IMG/VR virus record: IMGVR_UViG_3300031787_000380
Location: 1-37,293 of that record
Origin: a virus
Strand: one strand, 5' to 3'
Length of the DNA: 37,293 bases
The position numbers were made by a program, and so were the translations under genes. Under the pieces are notes generated by a model, which did no database searches, was not told the DNA's origin, and saw only the letters and a list, made by a program, of their open reading frames with translations. Numbering within the stretch: position 1 is the first letter of the stretch; the number at the start of each line of letters is the position of its first letter. Positions 21,895 through 37,293 of this stretch are shown one piece after another.

Positions 21895-21904
21895 TTTTTC
21901 TCCC

Positions 21905-23538: not shown

Positions 23539-23540
23539 GG

Positions 23541-23873: not shown

Positions 23874-24603
23874 CGCTGTCCTCTTTCGCGCCCGGAAGGC
23901 GCGCGTCTTTCTTCGCCCAATACACGAGCAAGGCACCGTGGAAGACACGCCAACCAGCGTCGAGCTTTTCAGGCGTCAACGCGATCTCGTTGACGACGTC
24001 GCCTTCGATTGGCGCATGAAACACGACGCCGCCGCCGGTGATCAGGTGCTCGCGGTCATCGCGCGACCAATCCCAGAGATGACGATAGGCGGCCAACTGT
24101 GGCACGACCTCGTCGAAGGCGCCTTTGCCCGTCTTGAGATCGGCGACGTACGTGACTCCGTCTCGCTCGACGATAAAGTCGAGCGTTCCGCCCCATCCTT
24201 CGCCGACGTCGAAGATCGAACTATTCCATTCGCTGGCGACGACCCGGTAGCCACGCGCTGCGATGTGATCGATCACGCGCTGCGCACACGCGCGGGCCGC
24301 GTCGCTCGCATCCTCGGGCCATGCCTCGCCCGCGTAGTGCGCCTCAACGCATGCGTGCGCCTGCGTACCCGCGTCGGCGGCGTCTTGCCGGCGCTGAAAT
24401 GGCGCCTTGCGCCCGATCTCGATTGCCTGCTCCGCCGGCTGGCCGCCGTCGACAATCGCGGCGGCCGTGGCTTCTGCTGCGGCGCGCGCGGCCCATGGCA
24501 CGAGCGCCGGCTTGTCGAGCACCGCAAGAACGGTGGTGACACCTGGCAAGCGCTTGCCGTTGCTGTCGCGGTACTGCCTACGGGGCTTCTTTGTCGTCGT
24601 CAT
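23863..24603 (-). CDS. RecB/Cas4-like PD-(D/E)XK exonuclease (246 aa)
   Basis: ATG 24603 overlaps the HTH gene stop by ATGA. The nuclease core reads in order: GTQAHACVEAH (His83), an acidic Glu at about 125, GGTLDFIV (Asp142), VADLKTGKG (Asp155 and Lys157) and QLAAY (Gln169). This is the metal-binding pattern of phage RecB-like exonucleases, which trim duplex ends to give single strands for annealing. With the ATPase and ssDNA-binding genes upstream it completes a recombination cassette. No Cys cluster for an iron-sulphur centre is seen, so it is closer to RecB-like phage nucleases than to Cas4 proper. Confidence 0.8.
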   Translation of the reverse strand: MTTTKKPRRQYRDSNGKRLPGVTTVLAVLDKPALVPWAARAAAEATAAAIVDGGQPAEQAIEIGRKAPFQRRQDAADAGTQAHACVEAHYAGEAWPEDASDAARACAQRVIDHIAARGYRVVASEWNSSIFDVGEGWGGTLDFIVERDGVTYVADLKTGKGAFDEVVPQLAAYRHLWDWSRDDREHLITGGGVVFHAPIEGDVVNEIALTPEKLDAGWRVFHGALLVYWAKKDARLPGAKEDSDAA

Positions 24604-24968
24604 TGCTTCGTCTCCCACGTCGGGGGCTCTGCCTCCGACAAGTTGAAAACCTCAAGGATTGAATCGGCGCGCCATTGCGGGATGGCCGATCGCTCTGTCT
24701 CCCACAGGGACAGCAACGACGACGACACGCCGATGGCTTCGGCCAATTGCTTATTCGACCACCGCGCGCGCTGCCGCGCGATAGCGAGCGCGTGGCCACT
24801 ACCGGGCGGCAACGTCGGCAGGCCGTTGCCGCTGTCGCGGATCATTTTCAAGGCGCCGATCGACCGCGTGAGGGTGACCACCGCAGACTCTAGAGCTTTG
24901 ACGCGCTCGTCGAGGGACAACGCGGTCGGCGCGTTGTCGGCGTCGCTGCGTATGTGCGTGCGCTTCAT
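24600..24968 (-). CDS. Helix-turn-helix regulator with coiled-coil N terminus (122 aa)
   Basis: ATG 24968 overlaps the upstream gene by ATGA. Residues about 18-45 form a coiled coil (LDERVKALESAVVTLTRSIG). Residues about 60-112 are a Cro/CI-type HTH: ALAIARQRARWSNKQLAEAI then GVSSSLLSLWETERSAIP, with the recognition helix at about 81-92. There is no protease domain, so it is Cro-like rather than LexA/CI-like. A DNA-binding protein encoded within the left operon could feed back on the early promoters at 27.7 kb and 33.9 kb. Confidence 0.75.
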   Translation of the reverse strand: MKRTHIRSDADNAPTALSLDERVKALESAVVTLTRSIGALKMIRDSGNGLPTLPPGSGHALAIARQRARWSNKQLAEAIGVSSSLLSLWETERSAIPQWRADSILEVFNLSEAEPPTWETKQ

Positions 24969-25117
24969 CGATCGGCCTCGCGCTTCATTCGCGCGCGATG
25001 CGCGCGCACCGTTGAGACATGGCACCCCACGCGCTCGGCAATCGCGGCGTCGGGCTTGATCTTTTTGTGGAGCAGCGCCGCGATGTGCGCGCGCATGCGT
25101 TGGTCAGGCTTTGCCAC
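24965..25117 (-). CDS. Small HTH protein (50 aa)
   Basis: GTG 25117 lies inside the end of the RusA-like gene (14-base overlap). The 50-residue product is basic and has a homeodomain-like HTH: AAIAERVGCHVSTVRAHRAR at about 27-46, in which GC is the turn and VSTVRAHR the recognition helix. Such short HTH units occur as phage regulators and as parts of resolvases or transposases. A regulator is more likely here given its neighbours. Confidence 0.6.
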   Translation of the reverse strand: MAKPDQRMRAHIAALLHKKIKPDAAIAERVGCHVSTVRAHRARMKREADR

Positions 25118-25487
25118 TGTCGTCTCCCCACGCCAGCCGAATCTCGACGGCGTATTGCTTAGGCTGTCCCTTGCGTTGTTCGTACCGCCACGCGATCGGC
25201 CCCCTGGGCCCGTCGTCGACGCCGAAGAATGCGGCCACTTCGTCGCGAATGCTCTTGAACGCGCCTTGCAGGTTGTCGTCATCGAGCATGCGCGGCGCGA
25301 TACGGGACAGCGTGCACGACGTCGGCGGGCTGGCCGTCTCCACGTCGGGGAGCCACTGCGATCGCAGCGCCACGGCCACTACAGCGCGCTCCCGCTTGGC
25401 GCGCGCGGCCCTGCGGGTCCAGTGCACGCGCGCATTCAGCGCGGCGCCGAGTTTCATCCCGTCGATCGGGATCGTGATCGTCGTCAT
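25104..25487 (-). CDS. RusA-like Holliday junction resolvase (127 aa)
   Basis: ATG 25487 overlaps the preceding stop by ATGA; a longer upstream frame is not needed. The protein has the RusA pattern: N-terminal strand and basic LNARVHWTRRAARAKRER, then LDDDNLQGAFKSIRD with an Asp-x-Asp-Asn (69-72) and a following Lys78, and then GVDD (89-92). RusA binds and cuts four-way DNA junctions with these acidic residues. Length (about 120) is typical. It is part of the recombination operon and would resolve intermediates before packaging. Confidence 0.75.
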   Translation of the reverse strand: MTTITIPIDGMKLGAALNARVHWTRRAARAKRERAVVAVALRSQWLPDVETASPPTSCTLSRIAPRMLDDDNLQGAFKSIRDEVAAFFGVDDGPRGPIAWRYEQRKGQPKQYAVEIRLAWGDDSGKA

Positions 25488-25759
25488 TCCCACACCCGCA
25501 CGCTCAACGCTGGCGCAAGGTCGACGCCGAAGAGGGCCGCCAATCGGTCGCAGCAGCGGTCGTCGGGGACAGCGCGCTCTTGCTCCCACAGGCACACCGC
25601 CTGGCGCGTGACGCCGCATGCGCTGGCGACGTAAGCAAGGCTGTAGTTTCGTGCGATTCGCAGCGACGCGAGGCGCTCGCCGTCAAGTCGAATTCGTCGC
25701 GGCCCTCGGTATCTTTCGATCGTCACGTCGTATCCCTTGGAAAAAAGCCCCGACGTCAT
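25484..25759 (-). CDS. Cro/CI-type HTH protein (91 aa)
   Basis: ATG 25759 starts after a 68-base gap that holds a hairpin; the stop overlaps the next gene by ATGA. Residues about 30-85 form an HTH_3 domain: GERLASLRIARNYSLAYVAS, then ACGVTRQAVCLWEQERAVP, then a final helix DDRCCDRLAALFGVD. It is the size of Cro-like proteins. As the first regulator gene after the gap it may control its own operon. Confidence 0.75.
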   Translation of the reverse strand: MTSGLFSKGYDVTIERYRGPRRIRLDGERLASLRIARNYSLAYVASACGVTRQAVCLWEQERAVPDDRCCDRLAALFGVDLAPALSVRVWE

Positions 25760-25770
25760 CTCACCATCAT

Positions 25771-25791
25771 CCGGCGGCGGAATGCCGCCGG
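25771..25791 (-). promoter_or_regulatory. GC hairpin in the left operon gap
   Basis: A perfect 8-bp stem, CCGGCGGC (25771-25778) with GCCGCCGG (25784-25791), has a 5-base loop and lies between the DUF669 stop and the HTH start. No U-run follows on the minus strand, so it is more likely a pause, processing or attenuation element than a full terminator. Confidence 0.45.
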
Positions 25792-25827
25792 TTTGCCGCG
25801 CTCGGGGCCACACGCGGCGGGGATCGA

Positions 25828-26364
25828 TCAGCCCTGCGTCTGTCGACGAGACAAGAACGCGGGCGCATTCGCCGCAGGCTTCGCGGCAGGCTTCGACGCT
25901 GGCGTGGGCGCGCTCGGCGCCTGCCCGGCAACGGGCTCGCGCCGCTTGATTTTGTTGCGGGCCTCCCATTCCCCCTTGGCGGGCTCGACGTCGACGGCGG
26001 CGATGCACTCGCGCTCCAACATCGGCGCGAGGCTCGAGCCCGACACGCCGTACGCGGCGAGCATGCGCACGACGTCGGCGCGGCCGCGCGCCATCACCTT
26101 ACCGTCCGCATGTGCGACGACGTAGCGCGACCAAATCTTGCGGCCACGGTGCGGGCTCTCGTCGTCGCAAATCGTCTCTTCGATCGATGCCATGATCGTT
26201 GACGGGTTGTTTTTCGACGGCGCCACCTTCGCCGACGAACAGATCACGCGGTAACGGCCGGGCGGCAGCAGATCGAAAGAGGGCGCCTCGACTGTGCTCG
26301 TGTCGAATCCGAGATCCATTTCGTCGCCGGTGCTGCCGTTGTCGTCGTCGTTCCAATTGGTCAT
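25828..26364 (-). CDS. DUF669-family ssDNA-binding protein (178 aa)
   Basis: I chose ATG 26364; an in-frame ATG further upstream has no support. Residues 1-20 are acidic. Residues about 34-125 match the DUF669 pattern: LLPPGRYRVICSSAKVAPSK, a charged MASIEETI strand, HRGRKIWSRYVVAHAD, and a helix ADVVRMLAAYGVSG. The rest is a Pro/Ala/Lys-rich tail. DUF669 proteins lie beside phage AAA ATPases of recombination cassettes and are thought to bind ssDNA. This arrangement is exactly what is seen here. There is no acidic SSB-type tip; the C terminus is basic. Confidence 0.7.
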   Translation of the reverse strand: MTNWNDDDNGSTGDEMDLGFDTSTVEAPSFDLLPPGRYRVICSSAKVAPSKNNPSTIMASIEETICDDESPHRGRKIWSRYVVAHADGKVMARGRADVVRMLAAYGVSGSSLAPMLERECIAAVDVEPAKGEWEARNKIKRREPVAGQAPSAPTPASKPAAKPAANAPAFLSRRQTQG

Positions 26365-26437
26365 CGTGTGCCTCTGCTCGGTTGTGCGGGCGCCTATCTC
26401 CCGCGATCGGCTGGGCCGGATATGCTCCGGCGGGCGG

Positions 26438-26638
26438 TCAATCTTCGACAATCACGCGAATCGCTACATGCTCGCTTCCCGGAATAGGATCGCCCTGCAC
26501 CTTGTGTGCGTTGCCGAATTCGTCGTGGTGCCACCCTGGCTGTCTATGCAGAAAAACCATCGCTCCGACCAACGTTTCCAACGCTTTCGCAATTCGCCGA
26601 AGCTGATTCACTTGGTCCTTGTGAAGATCGTCGTTCAC
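26438..26638 (-). CDS. Small hypothetical protein (66 aa)
   Basis: GTG 26638 overlaps the AAA gene stop (GTGA). Residues 3-28 are a helix (NDDLHKDQVNQLRRIAKALE). The second half is a small beta part with PGWHHDEFGNAHKV and a final HVAIRVIVED strand. Coupling suggests an accessory of the recombination ATPase. No family is recognised. Confidence 0.55.
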   Translation of the reverse strand: MNDDLHKDQVNQLRRIAKALETLVGAMVFLHRQPGWHHDEFGNAHKVQGDPIPGSEHVAIRVIVED

Positions 26639-27333
26639 GCTGCACCGCCCATGATCTTCGCGACGACCGCACCGAGATCGGCGGGCTCATACGCATCGAG
26701 CTTGCCGCTGCGGTCTTTCGCGACGCTCTTCCCATCGGTAGCGGTCAGGAGGTAGCGAGACGCCACCTTGCCGCCCGCGCCATCGTCTTCGTCGATGACG
26801 ACGAGCCGGAAGACCTCATCGAAGAGATAGGGAAGCGCCTCGCCGAGTTTGGCGCCTGGCATTCCGATCGAGTGACTGACCTTGCCCGTCGTGTCGTCCT
26901 TCGTCGACGCGAGCTTGGCCGAGAAATACACGCCGCACGACAGATCGCGGAACGCGCGCATGATCTTGACCATCTCGTCGGACAGCGCGCCGTACGCTTG
27001 TCGCGGATCCTTGGTCTTCGCCTTCTCCGCCGATAGCACGATCTCCGCAATCTCGCTGACGCTGTCGAGCACGACCCACGCATACCCGTGGTCGCCAGCG
27101 CGAAGCTCGGCGTAGACGGCGCGCAGGGCTTCGATCGATGTCACTTCGACGACGTCGGCGTCGAGGTCCGCGCCAGCAAGCGAGAGAAGCCCCGCTTCCG
27201 CCGACAGGATCAGCACCTTGCCGGGCAGGCTGGCGATTAGAGTGGTCTTGCCTACGCCTGCGCCGCCGTACACAAGGATCTTGGGGACGATTGCGTTTAC
27301 TGCTTGGCGCAGTGCGGTTTTTTTGATCTGCAT
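26635..27333 (-). CDS. Sak4-like AAA ATPase recombinase (232 aa)
   Basis: A 232-residue P-loop ATPase with RecA-like core. Walker A is GGAGVGKT (23-30), Walker B is WVVLDSVSE (86-94), and a sensor-like VYFSAKLAS lies at about 135-143. It is of the AAA_24 type that includes Sak4 single-strand recombinases of phages. Such proteins bind ssDNA and promote annealing or strand exchange with a partner SSB and exonuclease, both encoded just downstream. The family is named with good confidence; the exact activity is inferred from it. Confidence 0.8.
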   Translation of the reverse strand: MQIKKTALRQAVNAIVPKILVYGGAGVGKTTLIASLPGKVLILSAEAGLLSLAGADLDADVVEVTSIEALRAVYAELRAGDHGYAWVVLDSVSEIAEIVLSAEKAKTKDPRQAYGALSDEMVKIMRAFRDLSCGVYFSAKLASTKDDTTGKVSHSIGMPGAKLGEALPYLFDEVFRLVVIDEDDGAGGKVASRYLLTATDGKSVAKDRSGKLDAYEPADLGAVVAKIMGGAA

Positions 27334-27344
27334 TGTGTGTCTCC

Positions 27345-27512
27345 CTACTTCGTCAGTGCGTCAAGGTACCCGTCAAGCCACCCGCGCAGGCTTTCAAGCC
27401 GCGCGATCCTCTCGACCAATTCTTCGATCCCGTCCGCTTTGTCTGCGTCGCGCCAGCACAACGTAACGACGGCGGAGGCGAGCATGATCTCGGGGTGTCG
27501 ATTGCGCCTCAT
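27345..27512 (-). CDS. Small hypothetical protein (55 aa)
   Basis: A 55-codon frame from ATG 27512, overlapping the stop upstream by ATGA, to TAG 27345-27347, with GGGAG for the next gene right after. The product is helical with a hydrophobic MLASAVVTLCWRD segment (10-22) and an acidic coiled part GIEELVERIARLESLRG. ATGA overlaps on this strand are a constant feature of real genes here, which supports it. Confidence 0.6.
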   Translation of the reverse strand: MRRNRHPEIMLASAVVTLCWRDADKADGIEELVERIARLESLRGWLDGYLDALTK

Positions 27513-27652
27513 GGCGCGCCACCGATGGCGGCGAAGAATTCGTCAATCGCGACACCGCGGCGGATGGCTTCGCGCATGATGGCGCGACGAAGTGCGGGGC
27601 GAAGTGTGGTCCATGACATGATGTGGTTCCCTGTGCTGTTGCCGGTCGTCAT
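27509..27652 (-). CDS. First gene of the left operon (47 aa)
   Basis: ATG 27652 has AGGGAG nine bases upstream and lies 40 bases past the start site expected from the leftward promoter; a second in-frame ATG follows at codon 12. The product is small and basic, with ALRRAIMREAIRRGVAIDEF as its core helix pair. First genes of phage early operons are often small regulators or host-takeover proteins. No homology is recognised. Confidence 0.6.
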   Translation of the reverse strand: MTTGNSTGNHIMSWTTLRPALRRAIMREAIRRGVAIDEFFAAIGGAP

Positions 27653-27698
27653 TGTCTGCTCCCTGTGTACCGGGTCGCTCCATGCGGCCCGTGGATGC

Positions 27699-27727
27699 AC
27701 TCTACGCCTGATCTGTGCTCGTGTCAA
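27699..27727 (-). promoter_or_regulatory. Early leftward promoter
   Basis: On the minus strand TTGACA (27722-27727), a 17-base spacer and TAGAGT (27699-27704) form a near-consensus sigma70 promoter. Its spacer, with GAGCACAGATC at its start, is almost the same as in the promoter at 33900. It should drive the recombination operon. Confidence 0.9.
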
Positions 27728-27735
27728 GCGCTCGA

Positions 27736-27764
27736 TTGACAGACGACGCAGATCGCGCTAGAGT
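27736..27764 (+). promoter_or_regulatory. Early rightward promoter
   Basis: TTGACA (27736-27741), a 17-base spacer and TAGAGT (27759-27764). Its -35 is 8 bases from the leftward -35, so the two promoters stand back to back and one bound protein or polymerase could affect both. It drives the helicase-primase operon. Confidence 0.9.
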
Positions 27765-27804
27765 GGCGTCACAACGCGGCAGATCCGCTGCGTGGGAGGC
27801 GTAA

Positions 27805-28032
27805 ATGTTTGCAGATCGATTGGCGCAACGTCGCGCGGTGTTCGACGGCGAAGATCGCAAGGTTGAGGTGTGGTGGCGGCATGACGGCTTGTTCGTCGTA
27901 TCTAGTCTTCGTCGGCGCGACCCGCAGCGACGGGCATGGATCGAAGTCAGGAGTGCGATCGAGAAAAGCGAGACGGCGGCGATGATGACCGCTGCGCTGT
28001 GGATGCGCGAGGCGCAAGGAGAAATGCCGTGA
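27805..28032 (+). CDS. First gene of the right operon (75 aa)
   Basis: ATG 27805 has GGGAGG upstream and lies about 34 bases past the expected transcription start. The 75-residue product is mixed alpha-beta: a helix, VEVWWRHDGLFVVSSLRR strands at about 20-37, then a charged helix to the end. No family is recognised. Its start codon region holds TTTGCAGATC, one base different from the repeated CTTGCAGATC motif of the 33-kb hub. It overlaps the next gene (GTGA). Confidence 0.65.
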   Translation: MFADRLAQRRAVFDGEDRKVEVWWRHDGLFVVSSLRRRDPQRRAWIEVRSAIEKSETAAMMTAALWMREAQGEMP

Positions 28033-28256
28033 TTCGTGACGCCTACCTGCCATGCCCCCTCTGTGACGCGCCCGCGATCCCCGCTAGCGGCAAACTCTTC
28101 GTCTGCCTCGGGCGCGAAGATCCGACGTGGACCGAAGACGACGAGGCCGACTGCCCCGGTTGCGGGGAGCACCTTCGCGCAAACATCACGGGCGACGGCG
28201 AGCGCGAGTGGATCGAAGCCATCCCGACGAACGAGGTGGTCGATGAAACTCCGTGA
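28029..28256 (+). CDS. Small zinc-knuckle protein (75 aa)
   Basis: GTG 28029 overlaps the stop of its neighbour. Cys pairs CPLC (about 9-12) and CPGC (about 42-45), with one more Cys at about 26, suggest a zinc ribbon. It is acidic and could help the helicase gene that starts inside its end (overlap 14 bases). Small zinc-ribbon proteins near phage helicases and primases are common, but their function is rarely known. Confidence 0.6.
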   Translation: MIRDAYLPCPLCDAPAIPASGKLFVCLGREDPTWTEDDEADCPGCGEHLRANITGDGEREWIEAIPTNEVVDETP

Positions 28257-29970
28257 CTACCAACAAGAGGCCGTCGACGCGGTGCTCGCCTACTGGGGCA
28301 AGGGTGGATCGAATCCTTTGATCGAAGTGCCAACAGGAGGCGGCAAGAGTGCGATCCTTGGCGAGCTTGCCCGCGTCGTCGTGCAGGAGTGCGGCGGGCG
28401 CGTCGTGATCGCCACGCACCGAGCGGAGCTTATCGAACAGGACGCCGCGGCGTGTCGGCGAGTGTGGCCGATGGCGCCGCTCGCGGTGTGGTCGGCATCG
28501 TTGAACAAGCGGGGCATCGCGCCGATCACGGTCTGCGGCGTGCAAACGGTGGCGAGGAAGGCGCGCGACCTTGGCGTCGTCGACGTGCTGATCGTCGACG
28601 AAGCGCACTTGATCCCGCCCGATGGCGCCGGGCAGTACCAGTCGCTCGTGCGTGGTCTGCGCGAGGCGAACCCGGCGCTACGCATCGTGGGGCTCACGGC
28701 GACGCCATACCGTCTCGGACAGGGATACCTAACGCAAGGCGACAGCGCGCTTTTCTCGTCGATCGTGTGCCGCGTGGAGATCCCCCGCCTTATCGCGGCG
28801 GGGCACTTGGCGCCGCTGGTGACGGGTGCCGTGTGCGTGGAGATCGACACGTCGGCGCTTGCGATCCGTGCCGGCGAATTCGCGACGCGCGACCTAGAGC
28901 TCGCGGCCGACATTGCCGAAGTAACCGACGAAGTGGCCGATGACGTGGCGGCGGCGCTGGCACAGGGGCGCACGTCGGCGCTGTTGTTTGGGTGCTCGGT
29001 GGCGCACGCGGAGCACCTGCGGGACGCGCTCGCGGCGCGTGGCGTCGAGTGTGCCACGATCACTGGTGAGACGGACCAATTCACGAGGCAAGCGATTATT
29101 GGTCGCTTCCGCCGTCGAGAACTGCCGGCGCTTGCATCGTGCGACGTGCTGACCACGGGATTCGACGCTCCCGTCGTCGACGTGCTCGCGGTTGTGCGCG
29201 CGACTGCGTCGCCCTCGCTGTATGTCCAAATCGTCGGCCGAGGCATGCGCCCGGCGGACGGGAAGCGGGACTGTCTTGTGCTCGACTATGGGGGCAACAT
29301 CGCGAGACACGGCCCCGTCGACGAGGTGAAGATCAAGCCCAAGTCGAAAGGCGAAGGCAAGGCACCGACGAAGACATGCGAAAATTGTGCGGCGGAACAG
29401 CCTGCCGGCGCGCGGGTGTGTAGTGAGTGCGACTACGAATTTCCGCCGCCGGAGAAGAAGGCAAACGCGCAAGCGTCGGCGTTGCCTGTGCTGTCGACGG
29501 GCGCGCTCGGCGGCGGACCGAAGTCAACGACGCACGCTATCGGGGAGACGCAGTACCACGTCCACCGCAAGCGCTCGGGCGACGGGCCGCCGACGGTGCG
29601 CGTGGACTACTACGGCGCGGAGCCTGAGAGCGCGTCCGCAGCGTGGGTGCCGACGAAAGTGGCGAGCGAATGGGTCTGCGTCGAGCATGACGGGTTCGCG
29701 CACGCAAAAGCCGCGAAGTGGTGGGCGCAGCACGTCGGCACGAAGATGCCGGCGACGGTGGTCGAGGCGGTCGAGCGCTTGCGGGCCGGCGAGATGCCGC
29801 GTGTCATCGAGATCGAAACGCGGCCGGACGGGGACTACACACGGGTAGTCCGTCTGCGGCAAGAGGCGGGGCGGCAACCTGGGGAGGACGACGAGGTGGA
29901 GGAGCCGCAGGCCGCGAAGGCTGAGGCGGCGCCGCTCGACCCATGGAACACCGACGATCTGCCGTTCTGA
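28243..29970 (+). CDS. DEAH superfamily II helicase with zinc ribbon and SSB-like tip (575 aa)
   Basis: ATG 28243 begins MKLRDYQQEA, a standard helicase Q-motif start. Motifs: PTGGGKS (30-36), IVDEAHLI (117-124), LTATPYR (151-157), and TTGFDAP with QIVGRGMRP (329-337). A four-Cys zinc ribbon follows (Cys379, 382, 393, 396), then a C-terminal region of about 170 residues rich in charged residues. The last residues are WNTDDLPF, very like the acidic tip of bacterial SSB (DDDIPF), which binds replication proteins. The enzyme is likely the replication or recombination helicase of the phage. The tip could recruit host factors that normally dock on SSB. Confidence 0.85.
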   Translation: MKLRDYQQEAVDAVLAYWGKGGSNPLIEVPTGGGKSAILGELARVVVQECGGRVVIATHRAELIEQDAAACRRVWPMAPLAVWSASLNKRGIAPITVCGVQTVARKARDLGVVDVLIVDEAHLIPPDGAGQYQSLVRGLREANPALRIVGLTATPYRLGQGYLTQGDSALFSSIVCRVEIPRLIAAGHLAPLVTGAVCVEIDTSALAIRAGEFATRDLELAADIAEVTDEVADDVAAALAQGRTSALLFGCSVAHAEHLRDALAARGVECATITGETDQFTRQAIIGRFRRRELPALASCDVLTTGFDAPVVDVLAVVRATASPSLYVQIVGRGMRPADGKRDCLVLDYGGNIARHGPVDEVKIKPKSKGEGKAPTKTCENCAAEQPAGARVCSECDYEFPPPEKKANAQASALPVLSTGALGGGPKSTTHAIGETQYHVHRKRSGDGPPTVRVDYYGAEPESASAAWVPTKVASEWVCVEHDGFAHAKAAKWWAQHVGTKMPATVVEAVERLRAGEMPRVIEIETRPDGDYTRVVRLRQEAGRQPGEDDEVEEPQAAKAEAAPLDPWNTDDLPF

Positions 29971-29978
29971 GGCGAACC

Positions 29979-30497
29979 ATGCAGTTGAATTTTTCTGTTG
30001 AATCATACGACGACGGGGCAAAAGCATGGCTCAAGAGATCGGGCCACTATCTCGACAACCCGCCGCCGGGATGCATCTTCTGCGTCGTCGTTCGTCGCGG
30101 TGTACCTGATCTGTTTGGTCAACCCATCGGCGGAAGTGAACGGCTGGGGATGTGTCTCGTCGGTCGGCCGATTGCTCGCATGCTCCCGCAAGACGGCAGC
30201 GTTGGCGAAGTCACGCGAATGGTGCTCGTCGATGGCCTTCCGCACGGTACCGCAAGCGCGGTGCTGCGGTTTGCCGGTGACGCCGCGCGACGTCGAGGGA
30301 TGGCAGCGCTTATTTCGTACCACGACCGCACACGCCACACGGGCTGCATCTACCGCAAGGCTGGCTTCCGCAAAGACGGAAAGACCACACCGCCAAAAGG
30401 CGCAGGCTGGGGATCGCGCGCAAGGCGAGATACCGAAGCACAAGCGGCGCCAAAGCAGCGGTGGCGTTTAGACCTGAAAAGCAACGCCCGGCGGTGA
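29979..30497 (+). CDS. GNAT-like protein, XF1762-type (172 aa)
   Basis: ATG 29979 is nine bases after the helicase stop. The core reads RPIARMLPQD, then GEVTRMVLVDGLPHGTASAV (about 77-96), then a helix, LISYHD, and TGCIYRKAGFRKDGK (about 121-135), ending in a basic KQRWRLDL tail. This strand-helix pattern with a final GxxYRKAGF is that of phage XF1762-type N-acetyltransferase-like proteins. GNAT-type proteins of phages include Mom, which modifies DNA, so DNA or protein modification is possible; the substrate is unknown. Its place between helicase and primase makes a DNA role attractive. Confidence 0.65.
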   Translation: MQLNFSVESYDDGAKAWLKRSGHYLDNPPPGCIFCVVVRRGVPDLFGQPIGGSERLGMCLVGRPIARMLPQDGSVGEVTRMVLVDGLPHGTASAVLRFAGDAARRRGMAALISYHDRTRHTGCIYRKAGFRKDGKTTPPKGAGWGSRARRDTEAQAAPKQRWRLDLKSNARR

Positions 30498-30599
30498 GGC
30501 CGGGCGACACGTCAACGGAGGGAGTGGCCGGCGACGTGGAGACAAGAGGCTAGCGTCGACACTGTCGGCGTGCAAGACGTGAAAGTGGGAGAAGACAAC

Positions 30600-32912
30600 A
30601 TGACCTCGATTGATCTGGCCCTGTCCCTCGCTGCGCGAGGGTGGCCCGTGTTTCCCGTTGGCAAGAACAAGCGACCGATCATCGGCGAGTGGACCGTGAG
30701 GGCCACGCGCGACGAGGCGAAGGTCCGCGAGATGTTCGCGCCCTATCCCGCGTGCGCGGTTGGCGTGCTGTGTGGCCTGCCGTCGCGGCTCTTTGTCGTC
30801 GACGTCGACAACGCGGACGCGGGCCATCCGATCCACGAGCGGCTAGAACCGACGCTCGTGATCGGGACGCCTCGCGGTGGCTTTCACTACTATTACGCGA
30901 TCCCCGATGACGTCGACGACGTCGAGGCCGAAGAGGTCTTGCGGAACACCCAAAAGGTTGAAGCGTGCCTCGGGTATCCTGACGTCGACACGCGCGGTTG
31001 CGGTGGGTACGTCGTCGGACCGGGCAGCATGACGAACGGCGGGCGGTACGAGATCCTCGTTGACGTCGAGCCGGCGCCGCTGCCGGCGTGGATCGTCGAC
31101 GCAATGCGCGCCTACAAGCGCCGCAAGGCGGCCGCCGTCTCGGCGCCACAGTTGCGGGCGCCTACCGCGTTCGTCGACGCTGGCGCTGCCTACGAACGCG
31201 CGCGGCGGTACGTCGAGCGCATGCCGCCTGCGATCGCCGGCAGTGGCGGCCACGTGGCGACCATGAAAGTAGCGCGCGCATGCGCGACGGGCTTCGGGCT
31301 TGGCGAGGGCGACGTGTTGGCGCTTCTGCGGGAATACAACGGCCGGTGTTCGCCGCCGTGGTCGGAGCGGGAGCTACAGCACAAAGCACGCGAGGCGACG
31401 CGCAAGCCCGACCCCAAGGGGAACACGCCGGGGCACTTGTTGGAACGCGCCTCGACGGACGTGATGCCCGGCGTCGTTTTTACTGGCGAGGAAGCGCTGG
31501 CCGTACGCGCCACCGTCGTTGCCGAAGTTGCCGAAGTCGTCGAGGGCGAGATCATTGACGAGACGGCCGAGGCGCGCACTTGGGTCAAGTTGCCGGAGCC
31601 GGACGACGCGGCGCAATGGGAGCTGCTTGACGAGATCAAGGCCCTTGGCGGCTTGTGCGACACGTTCGCGTCGTGGGTGATCGCTGGCGCCGACTACCCG
31701 CAGCCGGGGCTTGCGGTGGGCGCTACGCTGGCGCTCGGCGCGGCGCTTGGGCAGCGGCGGTGGACGTTCGAGCGCGCCACGTCGTCGAGCATCATCTGCG
31801 CCGTCGCTCCCACGGCGAGCGGCAAGGGCCGGCCGCAGAACGCGCTGGGGCAGGTCATGCGCGAACTGTGGCCGACTGCGATCGGCGCAAATGACCTGTC
31901 GTCGACGACGTCAACGATCGGGCGCATCGAAGAAGCGACCGGACATGGCGTCGGGCTGTTGCTCGTGCTCGACGAATACGGGCCGCGCCTGAAGGCGCTC
32001 TTCGACGCGCGCGCGAGCCATCAGCGCGACATGCGCGCGCTGTTGCTGGCCGTGTCCACGATCGGGTCCGGTAGCTACGTCGCTTCGACGTCGTCGACGA
32101 AAGGCGGGAAGGATCGCGTGATCCGTGCGCCGGGGCTGACGATCTTCGGTTCGTCGACGCCTGCGGCCTTGCATGACGCGGTGGGGCAGATGGCCATCGA
32201 CGATGGTTTCCTCGGGCGGCACCTGTGGGTCGAGGGCCTTGCCACCTTGCCGAAGCGCCAGCGGGCGGCGCCTGGTAGTGGGGCCATCCCGCGCGCGGTG
32301 GTCGACGCGGTGCAGGCGTGCCGGGAATCGCACGAGGCGTGGCACCGTGGCCACCCTGAGCTCGGGGACGCATCGAAGGGCGACCGACTGGCGATGTATG
32401 TCCCCGAAGAAGTCGAGGATGCGGGCGGCGCCGATCTTCTCGCGTCCTACGCCGAACACTGCGACGAGCGGCGAAGGGCGCCACAAGAGGGCGACGTGCC
32501 GGCGGCGCTGCTCGGGCGGTGCGCGGAGCACGCCACTAGGGCAGCGCTGGCGCTGGCCATCCTTCGGTGTGAGTGGCCCGCGTGGCCGACTGTAACGGCT
32601 CAGGTTGCGCGCGCGGCTATCAGGGTGGTCGAGGCATCGGCTTGGACCATCGCTCGCAGCCTGCGCGACCACAGAGCGCCGGCATGGGACGACATTGCGG
32701 GGCGCGTGGCCTACGTCGAATCGGCGATGCGCCGGATCGCAGACGATGACGGGTGGGTGTCCCGATCGGCGCTGCTGTTGGCGTGCCGCAAGCTTGACGC
32801 CGACACGCTCGACCGCACGCTGGTGCGGCTGATCGACGAGGGAAGCATCAAGGCGGAGAAGATCGCGCAAGCAAAGGCAGGACGGCCCGTGACGCGCTTG
32901 CGTCTGGCGTGA
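30600..32912 (+). CDS. Primase-polymerase with C-terminal helicase-like domain (770 aa)
   Basis: ATG 30600 has GGGAGAAG upstream. The N-terminal part is an archaeo-eukaryotic type primase-polymerase (PF09250-like): VVDVDN (66-71) with the DxD metal site, TPRGGFHYYY (90-99, His96), and DVDTRGCGGYVVGPGS (128-143). A PriCT-like helix (SERELQHKAREATRK, 255-269) follows. Residues about 345-600 form a DUF3987-like P-loop domain, with PTASGKG (404-410; Gly where Ser/Thr is usual) and LLVLDEYGP (454-462). The protein should lay primers and unwind at the phage origin. It is the last gene before the repeat-rich hub, where an origin is likely. Confidence 0.85.
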   Translation: MTSIDLALSLAARGWPVFPVGKNKRPIIGEWTVRATRDEAKVREMFAPYPACAVGVLCGLPSRLFVVDVDNADAGHPIHERLEPTLVIGTPRGGFHYYYAIPDDVDDVEAEEVLRNTQKVEACLGYPDVDTRGCGGYVVGPGSMTNGGRYEILVDVEPAPLPAWIVDAMRAYKRRKAAAVSAPQLRAPTAFVDAGAAYERARRYVERMPPAIAGSGGHVATMKVARACATGFGLGEGDVLALLREYNGRCSPPWSERELQHKAREATRKPDPKGNTPGHLLERASTDVMPGVVFTGEEALAVRATVVAEVAEVVEGEIIDETAEARTWVKLPEPDDAAQWELLDEIKALGGLCDTFASWVIAGADYPQPGLAVGATLALGAALGQRRWTFERATSSSIICAVAPTASGKGRPQNALGQVMRELWPTAIGANDLSSTTSTIGRIEEATGHGVGLLLVLDEYGPRLKALFDARASHQRDMRALLLAVSTIGSGSYVASTSSTKGGKDRVIRAPGLTIFGSSTPAALHDAVGQMAIDDGFLGRHLWVEGLATLPKRQRAAPGSGAIPRAVVDAVQACRESHEAWHRGHPELGDASKGDRLAMYVPEEVEDAGGADLLASYAEHCDERRRAPQEGDVPAALLGRCAEHATRAALALAILRCEWPAWPTVTAQVARAAIRVVEASAWTIARSLRDHRAPAWDDIAGRVAYVESAMRRIADDDGWVSRSALLLACRKLDADTLDRTLVRLIDEGSIKAEKIAQAKAGRPVTRLRLA

Positions 32913-32972
32913 TGTGCGGGTAGGCTAGCAGGGGTTCCGCGGGCAGGCAATTAATTGTTTGTTTGCGGACCC

Positions 32973-33008
32973 CATACCTACGAGAGCCTTTTCGCGTGGG
33001 TAGGTATG
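32973..33008. repeat. Inverted repeat CATACCTAC / GTAGGTATG
   Basis: Perfect 9-bp arms (32973-32981 and 33000-33008) are separated by 18 bases, just before the A/T-rich stretch. They may be a dyad protein site or the stem of an RNA hairpin after the primase gene. Confidence 0.7.
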
Positions 33009-33022
33009 TAAGAAAATAATTA

Positions 33023-33053
33023 ATCGGAATTATCAATTCCGATGTCTAGCCGT
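33023..33053 (+). terminator. Candidate terminator after primase operon
   Basis: A 9-bp perfect stem (33023-33031 with 33035-33043) has loop ATC and is followed after about 9 bases by TTTTT. The stem is A/T-rich and the U-run distant, so termination may be weak; an origin-associated hairpin is an alternative. Confidence 0.45.
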
Positions 33054-33137
33054 TTTTACAACTACAACGCATGCTCGTTTCGTCGCATTGCAACGCGGCG
33101 CGAGCGATTGGCGTGCCTCGACTGGCGGGGTAATTAC

Positions 33138-33170
33138 TTGCAGATCGGGGCCTGCAAATAATGCCCCGAT
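33138..33170 (+). promoter_or_regulatory. Two mutually exclusive hairpins
   Basis: TTGCAG (33138-33143) pairs with CTGCAA (33152-33157), while ATCGGGGC (33144-33151) pairs with GCCCCGAT (33163-33170). The loop and 3' arm of the first stem overlap the arm and loop of the second, so only one can form at a time, as in attenuators. Confidence 0.5.
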
Positions 33171-33198
33171 GGCGCACCGACCGCTTGGACGGGGCCGG

Positions 33199-33228
33199 CG
33201 TGAGCAATCGTGAGCAATCGTGAGCAAT
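33199..33228 (+). repeat. Three tandem copies of CGTGAGCAAT
   Basis: Three perfect 10-bp repeats are set in direct order, one DNA helical turn each. The last copy runs into GAGCAATGCTC, an 11-base palindrome. This is iteron-like spacing. Confidence 0.9.
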
Positions 33229-33284
33229 GCTCGGCCGTGCAGATCGAGCTGGACGCGGCGCGGGGCTTACGGGCACAAGAGGGC

Positions 33285-33500
33285 ATGATCGTGTGCGTGC
33301 CCTGCAATCGCGCTATGGTGCAAGCCGGCGACACCTCGACGGCGTGGATCAAGCAGACGAAGAAGGAGCACCCTTGCACCGTCGCCCATTGTCCCTCTTG
33401 TGGTGTCATCGTCGCCAACGTCAGCAAGCACAGTGAGAAGCGCGCCGAAGATCCGTGGCCCGGTGATCTCGTGCTTGATCTAAAGCTCGACGAGTCATAG
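33285..33500 (+). CDS. Small zinc-finger protein (71 aa)
   Basis: I chose ATG 33285, with AGAGG seven bases upstream; a longer frame starting at GTG 33210 would read through the tandem repeats. The 71-residue product has CVPC (about 4-7) and CPSC (about 36-39), a likely zinc ribbon, and ends in acidic residues. It lies between two sets of tandem repeats. It could bind DNA or RNA in this hub, but nothing more can be said. Confidence 0.6.
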   Translation: MIVCVPCNRAMVQAGDTSTAWIKQTKKEHPCTVAHCPSCGVIVANVSKHSEKRAEDPWPGDLVLDLKLDES

Positions 33501-33523
33501 GCGAGTCATAGGCGAGTCATAGG
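33491..33523 (+). repeat. Three tandem copies of CGAGTCATAGG
   Basis: Three perfect 11-bp direct repeats begin inside the last codons of the zinc-finger gene and include its TAG stop. Together with the triple 10-bp repeat at 33199 they flank that gene on both sides. Confidence 0.9.
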
Positions 33524-33666
33524 CAGATCACGCTGGCGCCGCGCGCTGGCGGATGGCATGGTGCGTTCACCCGTCGCGGTAGTGGTAACTCGCGGAGCCG
33601 GACGGTACGGAAGCGCATGGTCCGGCCGGCTTGCGCGACCGGCTCGGGGAAACCCGGGCGCTCGGG

Positions 33667-33744
33667 GTGGGTTGTCGGGACGGCTGACCGACGCCGCAAG
33701 GTTGGCGCGCAAGCGCACGGATGGTTCGACTCCATACGCCCACG
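33667..33744 (+). ncRNA. tRNA-like element (degenerate tRNA or tRNA-derived site)
   Basis: Acceptor-like arms GTGGGT (33667-33672) and GCCCAC (33738-33743) can pair. TCGG/CCGA (33675-33678, 33688-33691) closes a 9-base loop with GG as in a D-arm. GGTTCGACTCC (33723-33733) is an excellent T-arm. The anticodon arm is abnormal: the best stem closes a 6- or 8-base loop with no U33, so no anticodon can be assigned. It may be a decayed tRNA, a tRNA mimic or a piece of host tRNA in an old attachment site. Confidence 0.35.
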
Positions 33745-33769
33745 CCGCCGCAAGGCGGCGTTTTCTTTT
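33743..33769 (+). terminator. Rho-independent terminator in the hub
   Basis: CGCCGCC (33743-33749), a GCAA tetraloop, GGCGGCG (33754-33760) and TTTTCTTTT. This is a textbook terminator with no protein gene directly before it, which argues that the segment upstream is transcribed as RNA. Confidence 0.9.
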
Positions 33770-33772
33770 GCG

Positions 33773-33810
33773 CCTTGCAGATCACGCGCGCGCATGCTCG
33801 ATCTGCAAGG
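33773..33810. repeat. Inverted repeat of the CTTGCAGATC motif
   Basis: Perfect 11-bp arms (33773-33783 and 33800-33810) are separated by 16 bases. The same 10-mer occurs at 33137-33146 and, inverted, at 33873-33882. A small hairpin GGTAAA/TTTACC (33809-33824) and a 14-base palindrome (33849-33862) follow. This looks like a cluster of protein sites upstream of the promoter at 33900. Confidence 0.75.
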
Positions 33811-33899
33811 TAAAGCGTTTTACCTTAGCGTCGGATCTGCGGATCTGTGGCTTTGCAAAGCCGTGCGGCGTCGATCTGCAAGAAACGTCAAGAGAACGC

Positions 33900-33928
33900 T
33901 TGACATGAGCACAGATCGGGCGTAGACT
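33900..33928 (+). promoter_or_regulatory. Third early-type promoter
   Basis: TTGACA (33900-33905), a 17-base spacer and TAGACT (33923-33928). Over 33 bases it matches the leftward early promoter at 30 positions, including the spacer. It lies about 28 bases before the ribosome site GCAGGAG... and ATG 33957. Confidence 0.9.
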
Positions 33929-33956
33929 GAGCCCACACAGAACGCAGGAGACGCAG

Positions 33957-34280
33957 ATGACGAAGTCCTACATGAACAAGCTGGTCAAGATTGCTCGCAG
34001 CCTCCGCAACGTCGACGTGATGAGCAACCTGAGCAAGAACGAGCGCATCAATGCCAAGCGCGCCGCCGCCATCAAGGCTCGTAACTACGCCGTCGACATC
34101 GCTTGGAACCTCGGAATCGACACAGCGGCGGTTGAGGCGGAGATGCAGGAAATCGTCCGCGAAGCCGATGCGGATGAACAGTGGCAGTCGGAATACTACC
34201 AGTTCAAGACCGAACAGATGTCGAAGCGAGTGAAGACCGGGTGGGAAAAAGAGGTGATGGTGATGATCGCCGGTCACTGA
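33957..34280 (+). CDS. Isolated early small protein (107 aa)
   Basis: A 107-residue protein with its own strong promoter (33900) and ribosome site (AGGAG, 6 bases before ATG) and its own terminator (34285), so it is a single-gene unit. It is helical and charged, with a basic N-terminal third (KLVKIARSLRN, KNERINAKRAAAIKARN), an acidic middle helix and a basic end. This might bind nucleic acid or a host protein. No family is recognised. Separate strong expression suggests a regulator or host-takeover protein. Confidence 0.75.
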   Translation: MTKSYMNKLVKIARSLRNVDVMSNLSKNERINAKRAAAIKARNYAVDIAWNLGIDTAAVEAEMQEIVREADADEQWQSEYYQFKTEQMSKRVKTGWEKEVMVMIAGH

Positions 34281-34284
34281 AACA

Positions 34285-34311
34285 AGGCGCCCTACGGGGC
34301 GCCTCTTTCGT
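34285..34311 (+). terminator. Terminator after isolated early gene
   Basis: AGGCGCCC (34285-34292), loop TACG, GGGCGCCT (34297-34304), then CTTTCGTT. This is an 8-bp perfect stem placed four bases after the stop codon. Confidence 0.85.
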
Positions 34312-34364
34312 TGCGCGCGCGCTTGCTGCGTGCTACGACGAGCGGACAAGCCTCAGTGGGCTGG

Positions 34365-34389
34365 CGACGGGGGCATGGTGCCTCCGTCG
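34365..34389 (+). promoter_or_regulatory. Strong hairpin before the packaging genes
   Basis: An 11-bp stem with one G-U pair has a TGG loop and is followed by TCGTTTGTG. It stands second in line after the terminator at 34285 and so insulates or regulates the small terminase gene; it may be a backup terminator. Confidence 0.55.
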
Positions 34390-34434
34390 TCGTTTGTGTG
34401 GTAGTCTCAGAGCAGAACGACAGCAGGAGCCGGC

Positions 34435-34734
34435 GTGGCTAAATTCGTGAAGGGGCAAAGCGGCAATCCCGGTGGCCGTCCCAAGCTCCCACCTAACGCA
34501 ATGTCGAGGGCGGAGGCGCTGGCGTTCATCGCCTCTTGCGTCCCGGAAGCCCTTGAGCGCATGCGGCAGCACATGCAATCCGCCGATGACAAGGTGTCGA
34601 TGCGCGCGTGCGAACTCATCCTGGAACGCCACTTGGGCAAGGTTGCCGAAGCGCAGCCGGTGGCGAACGACGAGGGCAAGGTCGACACGGTCGATTTCAT
34701 CCCGGCGGTCGTCACACACACGGCGGCGGAATGA
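34435..34734 (+). CDS. terS: Small terminase-like protein (99 aa)
   Basis: GTG 34435 has AGGAG upstream. The N terminus has FVKGQSGNPGGRPK, a signature common in phage small terminase and DUF5681 proteins. A helical middle follows (about residues 24-65: MSRAEALAFIASCVPEALER onward), then an acidic tail. The small terminase subunit recognises phage DNA and stimulates the large subunit. The protein is shorter than typical TerS, so an accessory DUF5681 role is an alternative. It is two genes ahead of TerL and coupled by ATGA to the next gene. Confidence 0.65.
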   Translation: MAKFVKGQSGNPGGRPKLPPNAMSRAEALAFIASCVPEALERMRQHMQSADDKVSMRACELILERHLGKVAEAQPVANDEGKVDTVDFIPAVVTHTAAE

Positions 34735-34937
34735 ACGACGGCGACGGCATCGACGGCGCCTACTCGGTCGGGCTGGACGGAGAGCTTGTCGTGCTCGTCG
34801 TGGATGGGGCCGCGACGGTGGTGCGGATGCGGCTGCCCGCGCACGAGGCCCGGCGCATGGCGACCCTGCTACTTGCCGCGTGCGACATCGTCGAGGCAGC
34901 CGACGTCGACCAGATGATCGGTGGGTGGAGATCGTGA
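34731..34937 (+). CDS. Small hypothetical protein between terminase genes (68 aa)
   Basis: ATG 34731 overlaps the preceding stop by ATGA, and its own stop overlaps the TerL GTG by GTGA. The product has strands GELVVLVVDGAATVVRMRLP (about 18-37) and a helix AHEARRMATLLLAACDIVEA. It is acidic. Function is unknown; the coupling suggests a part in packaging. Confidence 0.6.
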   Translation: MNDGDGIDGAYSVGLDGELVVLVVDGAATVVRMRLPAHEARRMATLLLAACDIVEAADVDQMIGGWRS

Positions 34938-36274
34938 CCACGGCGCGCGGTGTTGCCCAATTCGGGCAACGACACCTGCAAGTGTTGGCCGACCGTGGGC
35001 CCGGCGTGCGCGTCGTCTCGGGTGGGTATGGGTCGGGCAAGACGAGCCTGGGCGTGGCGTTCTTGCTCGACCTAGGGATGCGTGCGGGCGCCGATGGCCC
35101 CATCCTCGGGTGCGAGCCGACGTACCCCATGGTCCGCGACGTGATGGAGCGGTCGATCGCCGAGAACCTCGACCGCTGGGGCGTGCCATATCGGCACTGG
35201 AAGCAGGCCCATATTTTCGAGATCGGGCGAAAAGTAAAATTCGAGGTGTGGTGTAGATCGCTTGACAGGCCAAGGTCGACGGAGGGGATCAACGCGATCG
35301 GCGCGTGGATCGACGAGTGGGAGCTTTGCGACGTCGAGGCGCTTGTTCCCGCCATGCAGCGCGTGCGCGTCGGCGGCGCGCTAGAGACGCTGCTTACCGG
35401 CACCCCGGAGGGCTTTGGCCCGGCGTATGATTTGATCCTCGCGCGCCCTGCCCCGACGACGCGGGCATACATCATCCGCACGCGGGACAACCCGTTTCTC
35501 CCGGCGTCGTACATCGACGACAGCAAGGCGCGCCTTGGCACTGACGAAGCGATCAGCGAGAAGCTCGAGGGCGTGCGCACGGCGCGCGGTGGGCGGGTTT
35601 ATGCCCGTTTCAGTCGACAGACGCACGCGGCGGGCGCGCCAGCGGTGCGCCCTGGACGTGGCAGCAGGATTGCGATCGGGTGCGACTTCAATGTGAGAGC
35701 GATGCAATGGGTCGTCGCCGAGATCGACGACGACAGGAGAGTGGCGCACGTCGTGGGCGAGGTCGTCAAAGAAGGGGGCACGACGACAGACGAGCACGCC
35801 GAACGGGTGGCGGCATGGATCGGGCGGTACCTGCAACGCACGCGAGGGCGCCACTACTCGCGCGACGAGATCGCGAAGATGCGGATCGCGGCCTACGTCG
35901 ACGCCTCGGGCACCGCGCTCAAGTCGACGTCGTCGCTGTCAGACGTGCACCTCTTGCTGCAAGCGGGATTCAGGCCGGTGCATGGCACGCGCAACCCGCC
36001 TGTGCGCGACCGCGTGAACACGCTCAATTGCCTCTTTCGTGACCGCAGGATCACCGTCGACGGCGACGCCTGCCCTACGTTGGTAAAGGCGCTCGAAACG
36101 CAAGCCTACGACCGCAGCGGCGAGCCCGAAAAGAAGACCGGGGCGGCTGACGTCAGCCACATCGTCGACGCGCTCGGGTATCTCGCGCACTGGCAGTGGC
36201 CGGTCCACCGGCCGGGCGGCGCGAGCGCCGTCACGGCGACGCACGCGACGGACGAATGGGGCGTCGTGGGCTAG
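34934..36274 (+). CDS. terL: Terminase large subunit (446 aa)
   Basis: GTG 34934 gives the GTGA overlap usual in this genome; a GTG three codons earlier is possible. ATPase motifs: Walker A SGGYGSGKTS (29-38), Walker B AIGAWIDEWE (121-130, Asp127 Glu128), and the coupling motif LLTGTPEG (153-160). The RNase H-like nuclease part has Asp251 in GCDFNVRA, Asp323 in YVDASGT and Asp412 in DVSHIVDALGY. TerL cuts concatemers and drives DNA into the prohead. All motifs are intact. The packaging strategy (cos or headful) cannot be read from the sequence by eye. Confidence 0.95.
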   Translation: MTTARGVAQFGQRHLQVLADRGPGVRVVSGGYGSGKTSLGVAFLLDLGMRAGADGPILGCEPTYPMVRDVMERSIAENLDRWGVPYRHWKQAHIFEIGRKVKFEVWCRSLDRPRSTEGINAIGAWIDEWELCDVEALVPAMQRVRVGGALETLLTGTPEGFGPAYDLILARPAPTTRAYIIRTRDNPFLPASYIDDSKARLGTDEAISEKLEGVRTARGGRVYARFSRQTHAAGAPAVRPGRGSRIAIGCDFNVRAMQWVVAEIDDDRRVAHVVGEVVKEGGTTTDEHAERVAAWIGRYLQRTRGRHYSRDEIAKMRIAAYVDASGTALKSTSSLSDVHLLLQAGFRPVHGTRNPPVRDRVNTLNCLFRDRRITVDGDACPTLVKALETQAYDRSGEPEKKTGAADVSHIVDALGYLAHWQWPVHRPGGASAVTATHATDEWGVVG

Positions 36275-36276
36275 CG

Positions 36277-36305
36277 CTTACATAAGCGCCCCAGCGTGGT
36301 AGGCT
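36277..36305 (+). promoter_or_regulatory. Candidate promoter before portal gene
   Basis: CTTACA (36277-36282), a 17-base spacer and TAGGCT (36300-36305); ATG 36312 is only 6 bases past the -10. TTACATAAGC (36278-36287) is the same as at 2142-2151. GCGCTTA/TAAGCGC also forms a small dyad. No Shine-Dalgarno precedes the ATG, so a leaderless message is possible. Confidence 0.4.
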
Positions 36306-36311
36306 TGGGCC

Positions 36312-37293
36312 ATGATCACGCCGAATTCCGCGTCCGATGCCGTCGTCGACCAGATCCGCCGCGATGCGGGCGTGTGGCGTGTGGACCAATTGCGCGACCT
36401 CCTGACGTCGGGAAGACGACAGCGCGCGGCGGACTACGACAGCGTCGTGCGTGGCATCGCGCAGCGGTACGCGGGCGATCAGCAATCGATCGTGCGCGGC
36501 GCGTTGGAGAAAGCCTACCCGCGCACCGGGTCGAAGATGCCGATCGATCCGGTCAATTGGATGCGCTTCTTCGCGCGGCAAGATTCGGGCGTCTATCAGG
36601 CGCCCGCGAAGCGCGAGCTTGTCGAGGGCGAGGACGGCGCGCCGCTCGACCCTGCCGATCCTCGCGCGGTGGCATTTGCCGAAGCCCTCGACGACATCGC
36701 CGTTGACGTTCTCATGCCGGAGGCGGAGCGACGCGCGGCGACGGGTGCGCGGGCGTGCGTCGTCGTACTCGGGTACCAGAAGATCGGCGTCGACGATCCC
36801 GGCGAATGCGCGGCGCACCTCTACTGGCCGCACGACGTCGTCACGATCTGCCATCCGTCCGCACCATCGGAAGACGAGGCGCTTTGGTTCGTCGCGCTTC
36901 GACAGGCGCGTGATTCGACGCAGGACGCGGCCGATGTGTGGTGGGTGTGGTCGCGCGAATTCGTCGAGGATGACGCGGGCGCGCTTGTGCGCTTCGGCCC
37001 GTGGACGCATCGCCGGGTGTCGGAAGACACATTGAAATCGACGCCGACGGAAACCTATGAGGGGATCCTTCCGATCGCGTTTCTGCGCACCGAGGCGCCG
37101 GCCGGTGGTTTCTGGCCGGAGCCTGACAGAGACGTGTTGTTGAACGTCGACAACCTGAACGTGTCGAGGTCGAATCGGCAACACGTCGTCAACATGCAGG
37201 CGCACGCGCAGGCGATTTACAGCGGGATCACGCGCGAGACGAAGGAGCTTGTCGGCGGCCCCGATAGCGTGATCGCAATCGGCTCTGGCGAGT
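36312..37293 (+). CDS. Portal protein, N-terminal part (continues at 1-734)
   Basis: The frame is open from ATG 36312 to the contig end and carries on in phase at base 1 after removal of the 174-base overlap. The N-terminal 270 codons encode a helical region (DQIRRDAGVWRVDQLRDLLT), an RTGSKMPIDPVNWMRFFARQ segment and a Trp-rich WVWSREF near residue 210. Together with the C-terminal part the protein is about 513 residues. It sits directly after TerL and before the minor head protein, the fixed portal place. It lacks an obvious ribosome site. Confidence 0.8.
   Translation, partial: MITPNSASDAVVDQIRRDAGVWRVDQLRDLLTSGRRQRAADYDSVVRGIAQRYAGDQQSIVRGALEKAYPRTGSKMPIDPVNWMRFFARQDSGVYQAPAKRELVEGEDGAPLDPADPRAVAFAEALDDIAVDVLMPEAERRAATGARACVVVLGYQKIGVDDPGECAAHLYWPHDVVTICHPSAPSEDEALWFVALRQARDSTQDAADVWWVWSREFVEDDAGALVRFGPWTHRRVSEDTLKSTPTETYEGILPIAFLRTEAPAGGFWPEPDRDVLLNVDNLNVSRSNRQHVVNMQAHAQAIYSGITRETKELVGGPDSVIAIGSGE
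37120..37293. repeat. Terminal redundancy, right copy
   Basis: This is the second copy of the 174-base overlap described at 1-174. Joining the copies gives a circle of about 37,119 bp and restores an uninterrupted portal gene. Confidence 0.9.

Follow-up and report, generated by a model that had tools for sequence, protein, structure and literature searches.

In this study, we analysed the 37,293 nucleotides of the IMG/VR virus record IMGVR_UViG_3300031787_000380, a complete-looking genome of 37.3 kb that is referred to throughout as the window. It carries two divergent early promoters, PL (leftward) and PR (rightward), and a third copy, P3, located 6 kb away. Our findings suggested that all three promoters hold, in the spacer between their -35 and -10 boxes, an operator with the predicted core (C)AGATC, and an 80-residue XRE-family helix-turn-helix (HTH) protein from the PL operon was identified as a candidate for its binder. 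The conservation pattern described below makes it very probable that the element is an operator for some sequence-specific protein. A control region was in this way found for a phage group for which no cultivated relative was found, and it now has a 6-bp core, an 80-residue candidate regulator and natural variants from several clades.

Conservation of the spacer element at the early promoters

A preliminary description of this DNA had placed three promoters of the sigma70 type in the window, and a promoter scan of positions 23500-37293 bore out their coordinates: PL, PR and P3, each a 10/12 sigma70 promoter, were the sole matches (3 versus 1.4 expected). The reported identity of PL and P3 at 30 of 33 bases was exact (27698-27730 versus 33897-33929), and the repeat proved longer than first claimed, extending over 50 nt at 82% as the best inverted repeat of the window (blastn E = 1e-9). 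With a profile derived solely from promoters of 12 relatives and not from the window, PL scored 53.9 bits and P3 36.4 bits, against a maximum of 5.5 bits in 12 random genomes; the resemblance of P3 to the early promoters is more than chance. PR does keep CAGATC in its spacer, as had been described, while its columns do not align with those of PL and P3, since its site is shifted by one base away from the -35 box.

Relatives were chosen by their helicase and not by the motif, yielding 73 viral loci, and mirrored promoter pairs were then searched for without requiring any spacer motif. This motif-free search returned the window and its closest relatives, all with the same geometry of 17-base spacers arranged back to back with the -35 boxes 8 bp apart. 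The mirrored PL/PR promoters were kept in 13 distinct phages (relatives and window), giving a set of 26 spacers, and the predicted start CAC was conserved at the promoters of the relatives. GATC was present in all 26 spacers, the preceding A in 25/26 and the C before that in 21/26, while most other spacer columns showed 26-72% pairwise identity, the exceptions being an A beside the -35 box and a G close to the -10 box on the PR side. Because GATC was invariant while the other spacer bases varied, (C)AGATC was taken as the predicted operator core. The element was always oriented with transcription, in every one of these spacers and in P3. In the PR spacers, the register of the element against the boxes differed by 1 bp between clades, which favoured an independent protein over a fixed contact of the polymerase.

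The turnover of bases around an unchanging GATC gave good support to the earlier claim that a regulator site lies over the promoters. The broader claim, that the whole 17-base spacer is conserved for the regulator, held for the approximately 6 of 17 bases that are visibly constrained; the rest of the long PL/P3 match was attributed to duplication. It had also been proposed that the idea of a regulator would fail if related phages kept the promoter boxes and lost the spacer. This was not seen among the spacers of the window's clade. It was seen in a neighbouring clade (L011 and L086-L088), where back-to-back -35 boxes were kept with spacers lacking CAGATC and AGATC (one L086 spacer holds an unrelated CGATCG) and where the XRE protein has a different recognition helix, CT[AGS]AAVSSWETE. 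Loss of the spacer element alongside a different helix fits a regulator.

The candidate regulator and rival explanations

The small XRE protein was the best candidate, as every near-complete relative has an orthologue and profile matches extend to distant clades, and its gene occupies the same position in the PL operon, flanked by rusA and ssb, in all relatives covered. Translation starts at 25726, at a start codon common to the relatives. Its AlphaFold2 model (predicted local distance difference test score 91.6) is a single domain for which Foldseek gave P22 c2, SinR and CylR2 as the nearest solved folds; the PDB contained no sequence relative. The preliminary description had named three HTH proteins of the left operon as candidates, and this one, present in every relative, was retained. 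Since most relatives lack the proteins at 24600 and 24965, both were rejected as a general binder; the N-terminal half of the latter open reading frame (ORF) overlaps the RusA-like gene in another frame.

In the mechanism that we propose, each of PL, PR and P3 would carry a (C)AGATC operator in sense orientation, spanning roughly -22 to -17 and flanked by the -35 and -10 boxes. Soon after infection, sigma70 polymerase would initiate at all three promoters. As the XRE protein from the PL operon accumulated, it would occupy AGATC and keep sigma70 RNA polymerase off the promoter, shutting PL (and with it its own operon), PR and P3 together in a Cro-like early turn-off. P3 would derive from a copy of the PL/PR control region set before an inserted gene that has a terminator of its own, allowing the newcomer to come under the same control. 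We infer the binding, the repression, the direction of effect and the XRE protein as binder; the direction was assigned because of site position only. No Phage_integrase or Resolvase match was found in the 8 near-complete genomes, which made a lysogenic repressor role unlikely and a Cro-like role in the lytic cycle more likely.

The XRE type and the PL/PR operator type appear linked across the phage group. Helices of the VTRQAV class go with AGATC spacers, the helix CSVASLSVWENE with the palindrome CTATCGG-N3-CCGATAG, RTAAA[VI]CSLEHE with TGTAGC-N4-GCTACA, and LA[VI]STIHAIETE with TTTCTC-N9-GAGAAA. In the distant palindrome clades, the promoters appear face-to-face and share one palindrome, and each fetched locus has a single copy of its palindrome, at the switch. 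In L034, the XRE protein is of the CT[AGS]AAV type and the helicase groups with the GTAGC clade, while the GTAGC palindrome is absent. This linkage was regarded as supporting evidence and not as independent replication. A tentative and somewhat doubtful extension is that the recognition helix of one syntenic XRE protein and its operator changed in step in at least four clades, with incoming genes receiving copies of the early operator; such co-change would include a shift between palindromes under face-to-face promoters and asymmetric AGATC under back-to-back promoters. If the pairing is true, the set shows XRE recognition helices and operators changing together and an inserted gene brought under early control by copying of an operator-bearing promoter, and if the co-change is true, it offers a natural series from which XRE specificity could be read at the sequence level.

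Several results weighed against the XRE protein as the binder. The covariation largely follows phylogeny, each class forming one group on the helicase tree, on which the GATC class is weakly supported (46/8). A dyad around AGATC was looked for across the 26 sites, and none was found beyond GATC itself, so that the site is not the palindromic operator that might be expected; XRE dimers usually bind palindromes. In addition, CAGATC/GATCTG arrays lie upstream of terS in L020, L038, L087 and L090, whose XRE helices differ, with 4 to 9 copies within 34-92 bp (9 in 92 bp in L020; 2 in L087). The arrays indicated that a factor distinct from the clade-specific XRE protein may bind CAGATC there and, if so, perhaps in the spacers as well, and they weakened the earlier suggestion of one phage-encoded regulator for all sites. 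Because of these arrays and the missing dyad, we consider the case for the 80-residue protein as a Cro-like early repressor of its own operon to be evenly balanced.

Other sources for the pattern were also tried. Phylogenetically independent covariation was rejected, as a careful helicase tree allows a single origin per class. Terminase binding sites were rejected as the source of the arrays because several relatives have terS without an array, and a genome-wide stoperator system was rejected because CAGATC is unenriched at gene starts beyond the PR leader and the sak4 start. The arrays (L020:16460-16556, L090:9710-9768, L038:9286-9324 and L087 around 9510-9535) are often joined to GCTTTGCAA and stand beside strong promoters of inserted genes.

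The principal alternative is that CAGATC is the operator of another group-wide protein, either a second phage regulator or a host factor, with the clade-specific XRE proteins acting elsewhere. We consider this a serious possibility, although the less likely one. It would account for the arrays by inserted-gene promoters in other XRE classes, for the array kept in L002 and L054 without P3, and for CAGATC at the PR-operon leader in several classes. However, the left operon encodes no other conserved HTH protein, the operator type at PL/PR switches along with the XRE class, and this alternative leaves no visible operator for the XRE protein of the window's clade.

Control of the promoters by GATC adenine methylation, altering the access of RNA polymerase or of a regulator, was judged improbable. 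The mom promoter of phage Mu provides a methylation-controlled precedent, GATC is the only fully invariant part of the spacer, and the phage encodes both an N6/N4 DNA methyltransferase (21004-21894) and a Mom-like protein. However, conservation extends to the flanking A and C, the relatives have methyltransferases that are only distantly related, the Mom-like gene occurs in the window alone, GATC is mostly absent from clade II promoters, and the 326 GATC sites across the genome give no sign that the phage reserves this sequence. Finally, it is highly improbable that no regulator is involved and that the spacer match reflects descent of duplicated promoters or an RNA polymerase-spacer contact: PL and P3 do share the non-core GAGCA, whose variability between phages points to descent, and P3 is part of a recent insert, but descent alone would not keep GATC in every spacer while adjacent columns saturate, the register shift argues against fixed polymerase contact, extra CAGATC copies lie outside promoters, and clade II promoters work without CAGATC.

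The P3 insert and further CAGATC sites

Comparison with L002 indicated that P3 arrived with an insert of approximately 430 bp, as the L002 sequences flanking it at 33871 and ~34300 are contiguous (Table 1). No relative of the 107-residue P3-driven protein was found, including among viral contigs, and no third promoter of the PL/PR type was found in the 21 relative records searched, including seven of 35.7-37.8 kb. GAGCA, common to PL and P3, varies between relatives; as it is not kept there, its match was taken to reflect descent, and the longer PL/P3 match (GAGCA...GGCG) is mostly common descent or duplication. The P3 region also keeps a back-to-back TTGACG with CAGATC behind it and no -10 box, this relic half giving a weak profile match only (1.2 bits). 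The region looks like a copied control region in which one promoter is dead.

Table 1. Positions of the promoters, CAGATC sites, HTH genes and P3 insert features in the window.
Feature	Position	Strand	Remarks
PL, leftward early promoter (recombination/replication operon)	27699..27727	-	TTGACA-CGAGCACAGATCAGGCG-TAGAGT; 17-base spacer
PR, rightward early promoter	27736..27764	+	TTGACA-GACGACGCAGATCGCGC-TAGAGT; 17-base spacer
P3, third copy, promoter of moron-like insert	33900..33928	+	TTGACA-TGAGCACAGATCGGGCG-TAGACT; 17-base spacer
CAGATC in PL spacer	27710..27715	-	relatives' PL spacers: GATC 13/13, AGATC 12/13
CAGATC in PR spacer	27749..27754	+	relatives' PR spacers: AGATC 13/13; 1-bp register shift between clades
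CAGATC downstream of PR, 31 bp from spacer site	27780..27785	+	also L002, L003, L033; replaced in L001, L004, L005
CAGATC at first codons of first PR-operon gene	27812..27817	+	relatives: CAGATC between Shine-Dalgarno and start codon
CAGATC in P3 spacer	33912..33917	+	sequence
Array, five further CAGATC/GATCTG sites upstream of P3	33778..33878	.	33778+, 33800-, 33834-, 33842-, 33873-
XRE-family HTH protein, 80 residues, candidate regulator	25484..25726	-	GTG start; recognition helix ...VTRQAVCLWEQER...; Pfam HTH_31/HTH_3
Second XRE-family protein, accessory	24600..25025	-	HTH_31; close orthologues in L001 and L012 only
ORF with HTH_23 (homeodomain-like) C-terminus, accessory	24965..25282	-	full-length match in L001 only
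Insert versus L002: P3, gene and terminator, between primase and terS	33872..34307	+	edges approximate (+/- 10 bp)
P3-driven gene, 107 residues	33957..34280	+	sequence
Terminator-like hairpin closing P3 unit	34285..34304	+	AGGCGCCCTACGGGGCGCCT then CTTTCG; common to L033
Putative relic of PR-like promoter back-to-back with P3	33863..33891	-	TTGACG-TTTCTTGCAGATCGACG-CCGCAC, no -10

CAGATC clusters at the PL/PR control region and at P3, occurring 7 times in 33501-33956 versus 0.15 in shuffles; GATC itself is common genome-wide, and CAGATC showed no enrichment at gene starts outside the two already named. Spacings of 39 and 31 bp in the P3 array equal those at PL/PR. The first four of the array sites are kept in L002 and two in L054.

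Three further observations were made around these sites. In several clades, the first PR-operon gene has CAGATC between its Shine-Dalgarno sequence and its start codon (the PR leader of L001-L005 and L033; the helicase start of L016-L029). At 33773-33810, CCTTGCAGATC...GATCTGCAAGG form a perfect inverted repeat of 11 bp whose arms are 16 bp apart; L002 retains only the inner arms, GCAGATC/GATCTGC, a pattern more suggestive of protein sites than of an RNA hairpin. Just upstream of terS (34362-34408, +), a hairpin GGGGGCATGGTGCCCCC with a conserved loop is followed by TTTGTGTGGTAGNNT, and it was found at the same place in L002, L003, L006, L007, L014, L033 and L054; it may represent an early-operon terminator followed by an extended -10 late promoter.

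Known early switches and genome context

The system is a variant of known phage early switches. As in the lambdoid/P22 switch (Cro, c2), a small XRE protein is encoded in an early operon beside divergent early promoters, the predicted operators overlap the promoter core (AGATC in both PL/PR spacers across the 13 phages), and the modelled HTH fold appears close to that of P22 c2. The window's system differs in that each promoter has a single asymmetric (C)AGATC and not a palindrome (palindromes being found in other clades of the group), the regulator gene is mid-operon, no integrase and no second repressor were found, and a third promoter far from the others has the same site.

The repressor of the cluster A mycobacteriophage L5, a monomer with two DNA-binding domains and 183 residues, acts through operators and stoperators with a 13-bp site (PMC9283540, PMC6550527). 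Similarities with the window's system include asymmetric sites that follow the direction of transcription and lie both in early promoters and elsewhere, divergence of repressor and site motif together between phages, and an R-Q pair opening the recognition helix (R45/Q46 in the L5 type; R41/Q42 here). In contrast, the candidate here has one 80-residue domain and a 5-6-bp core, the sites upstream of P3 occur in both orientations, and there is no genome spread beyond background, whereas L5 has 20-30 genome-wide sites, mostly in one orientation. The P3 unit also resembles the morons of temperate phages, as it is a gene inserted among conserved phage genes, has a promoter and a terminator of its own and is absent from relatives. 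Unlike morons, P3 copies the phage's own early promoter including the operator, and co-regulation with the early genes would be expected, making its independence from the lytic programme doubtful.

Running on the minus strand from ~27.66 kb, the left operon codes for a Sak4-like annealing protein, an SSB-like protein, the XRE protein, a RusA-like ORF and an exonuclease, followed further on by a helicase and the methyltransferase. The RusA and SSB labels were given partly from sequence appearance, the RusA-like ORF having no family match and the SSB-like ORF a weak PHROG match. The right operon encodes small proteins, a ResIII/DEAD helicase, the Mom-like protein and a primase-polymerase, followed by terS/terL. 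Among isolated phages, no DNA similarity to the control region (27690-27800) or to the terL DNA was found, and a pattern search of bacterial and archaeal genomes for the mirrored CAGATC control region gave no match; helicase relatives in genomes were only 31-46% identical.

The Mom-like DNA modification protein of the PR operon (29943-30497, +) matched phrog_1384 (E = 8e-15), with Pfam Mom below the cut-off, and it was not found in any related locus examined. The methyltransferase gene adjoins a gene for a helicase-like protein, and the pair (21004-23278, -) has close relatives in L034 only and more distant ones in L040/L041. Positions 1-174 and 37120-37293 overlap by 174 bp with one mismatch, which identifies the record as a presumably circular or terminally redundant assembly. 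At 7068-7740, an ORF of the structural region contains approximately 10 copies of a 63-bp (21-residue) repeat.

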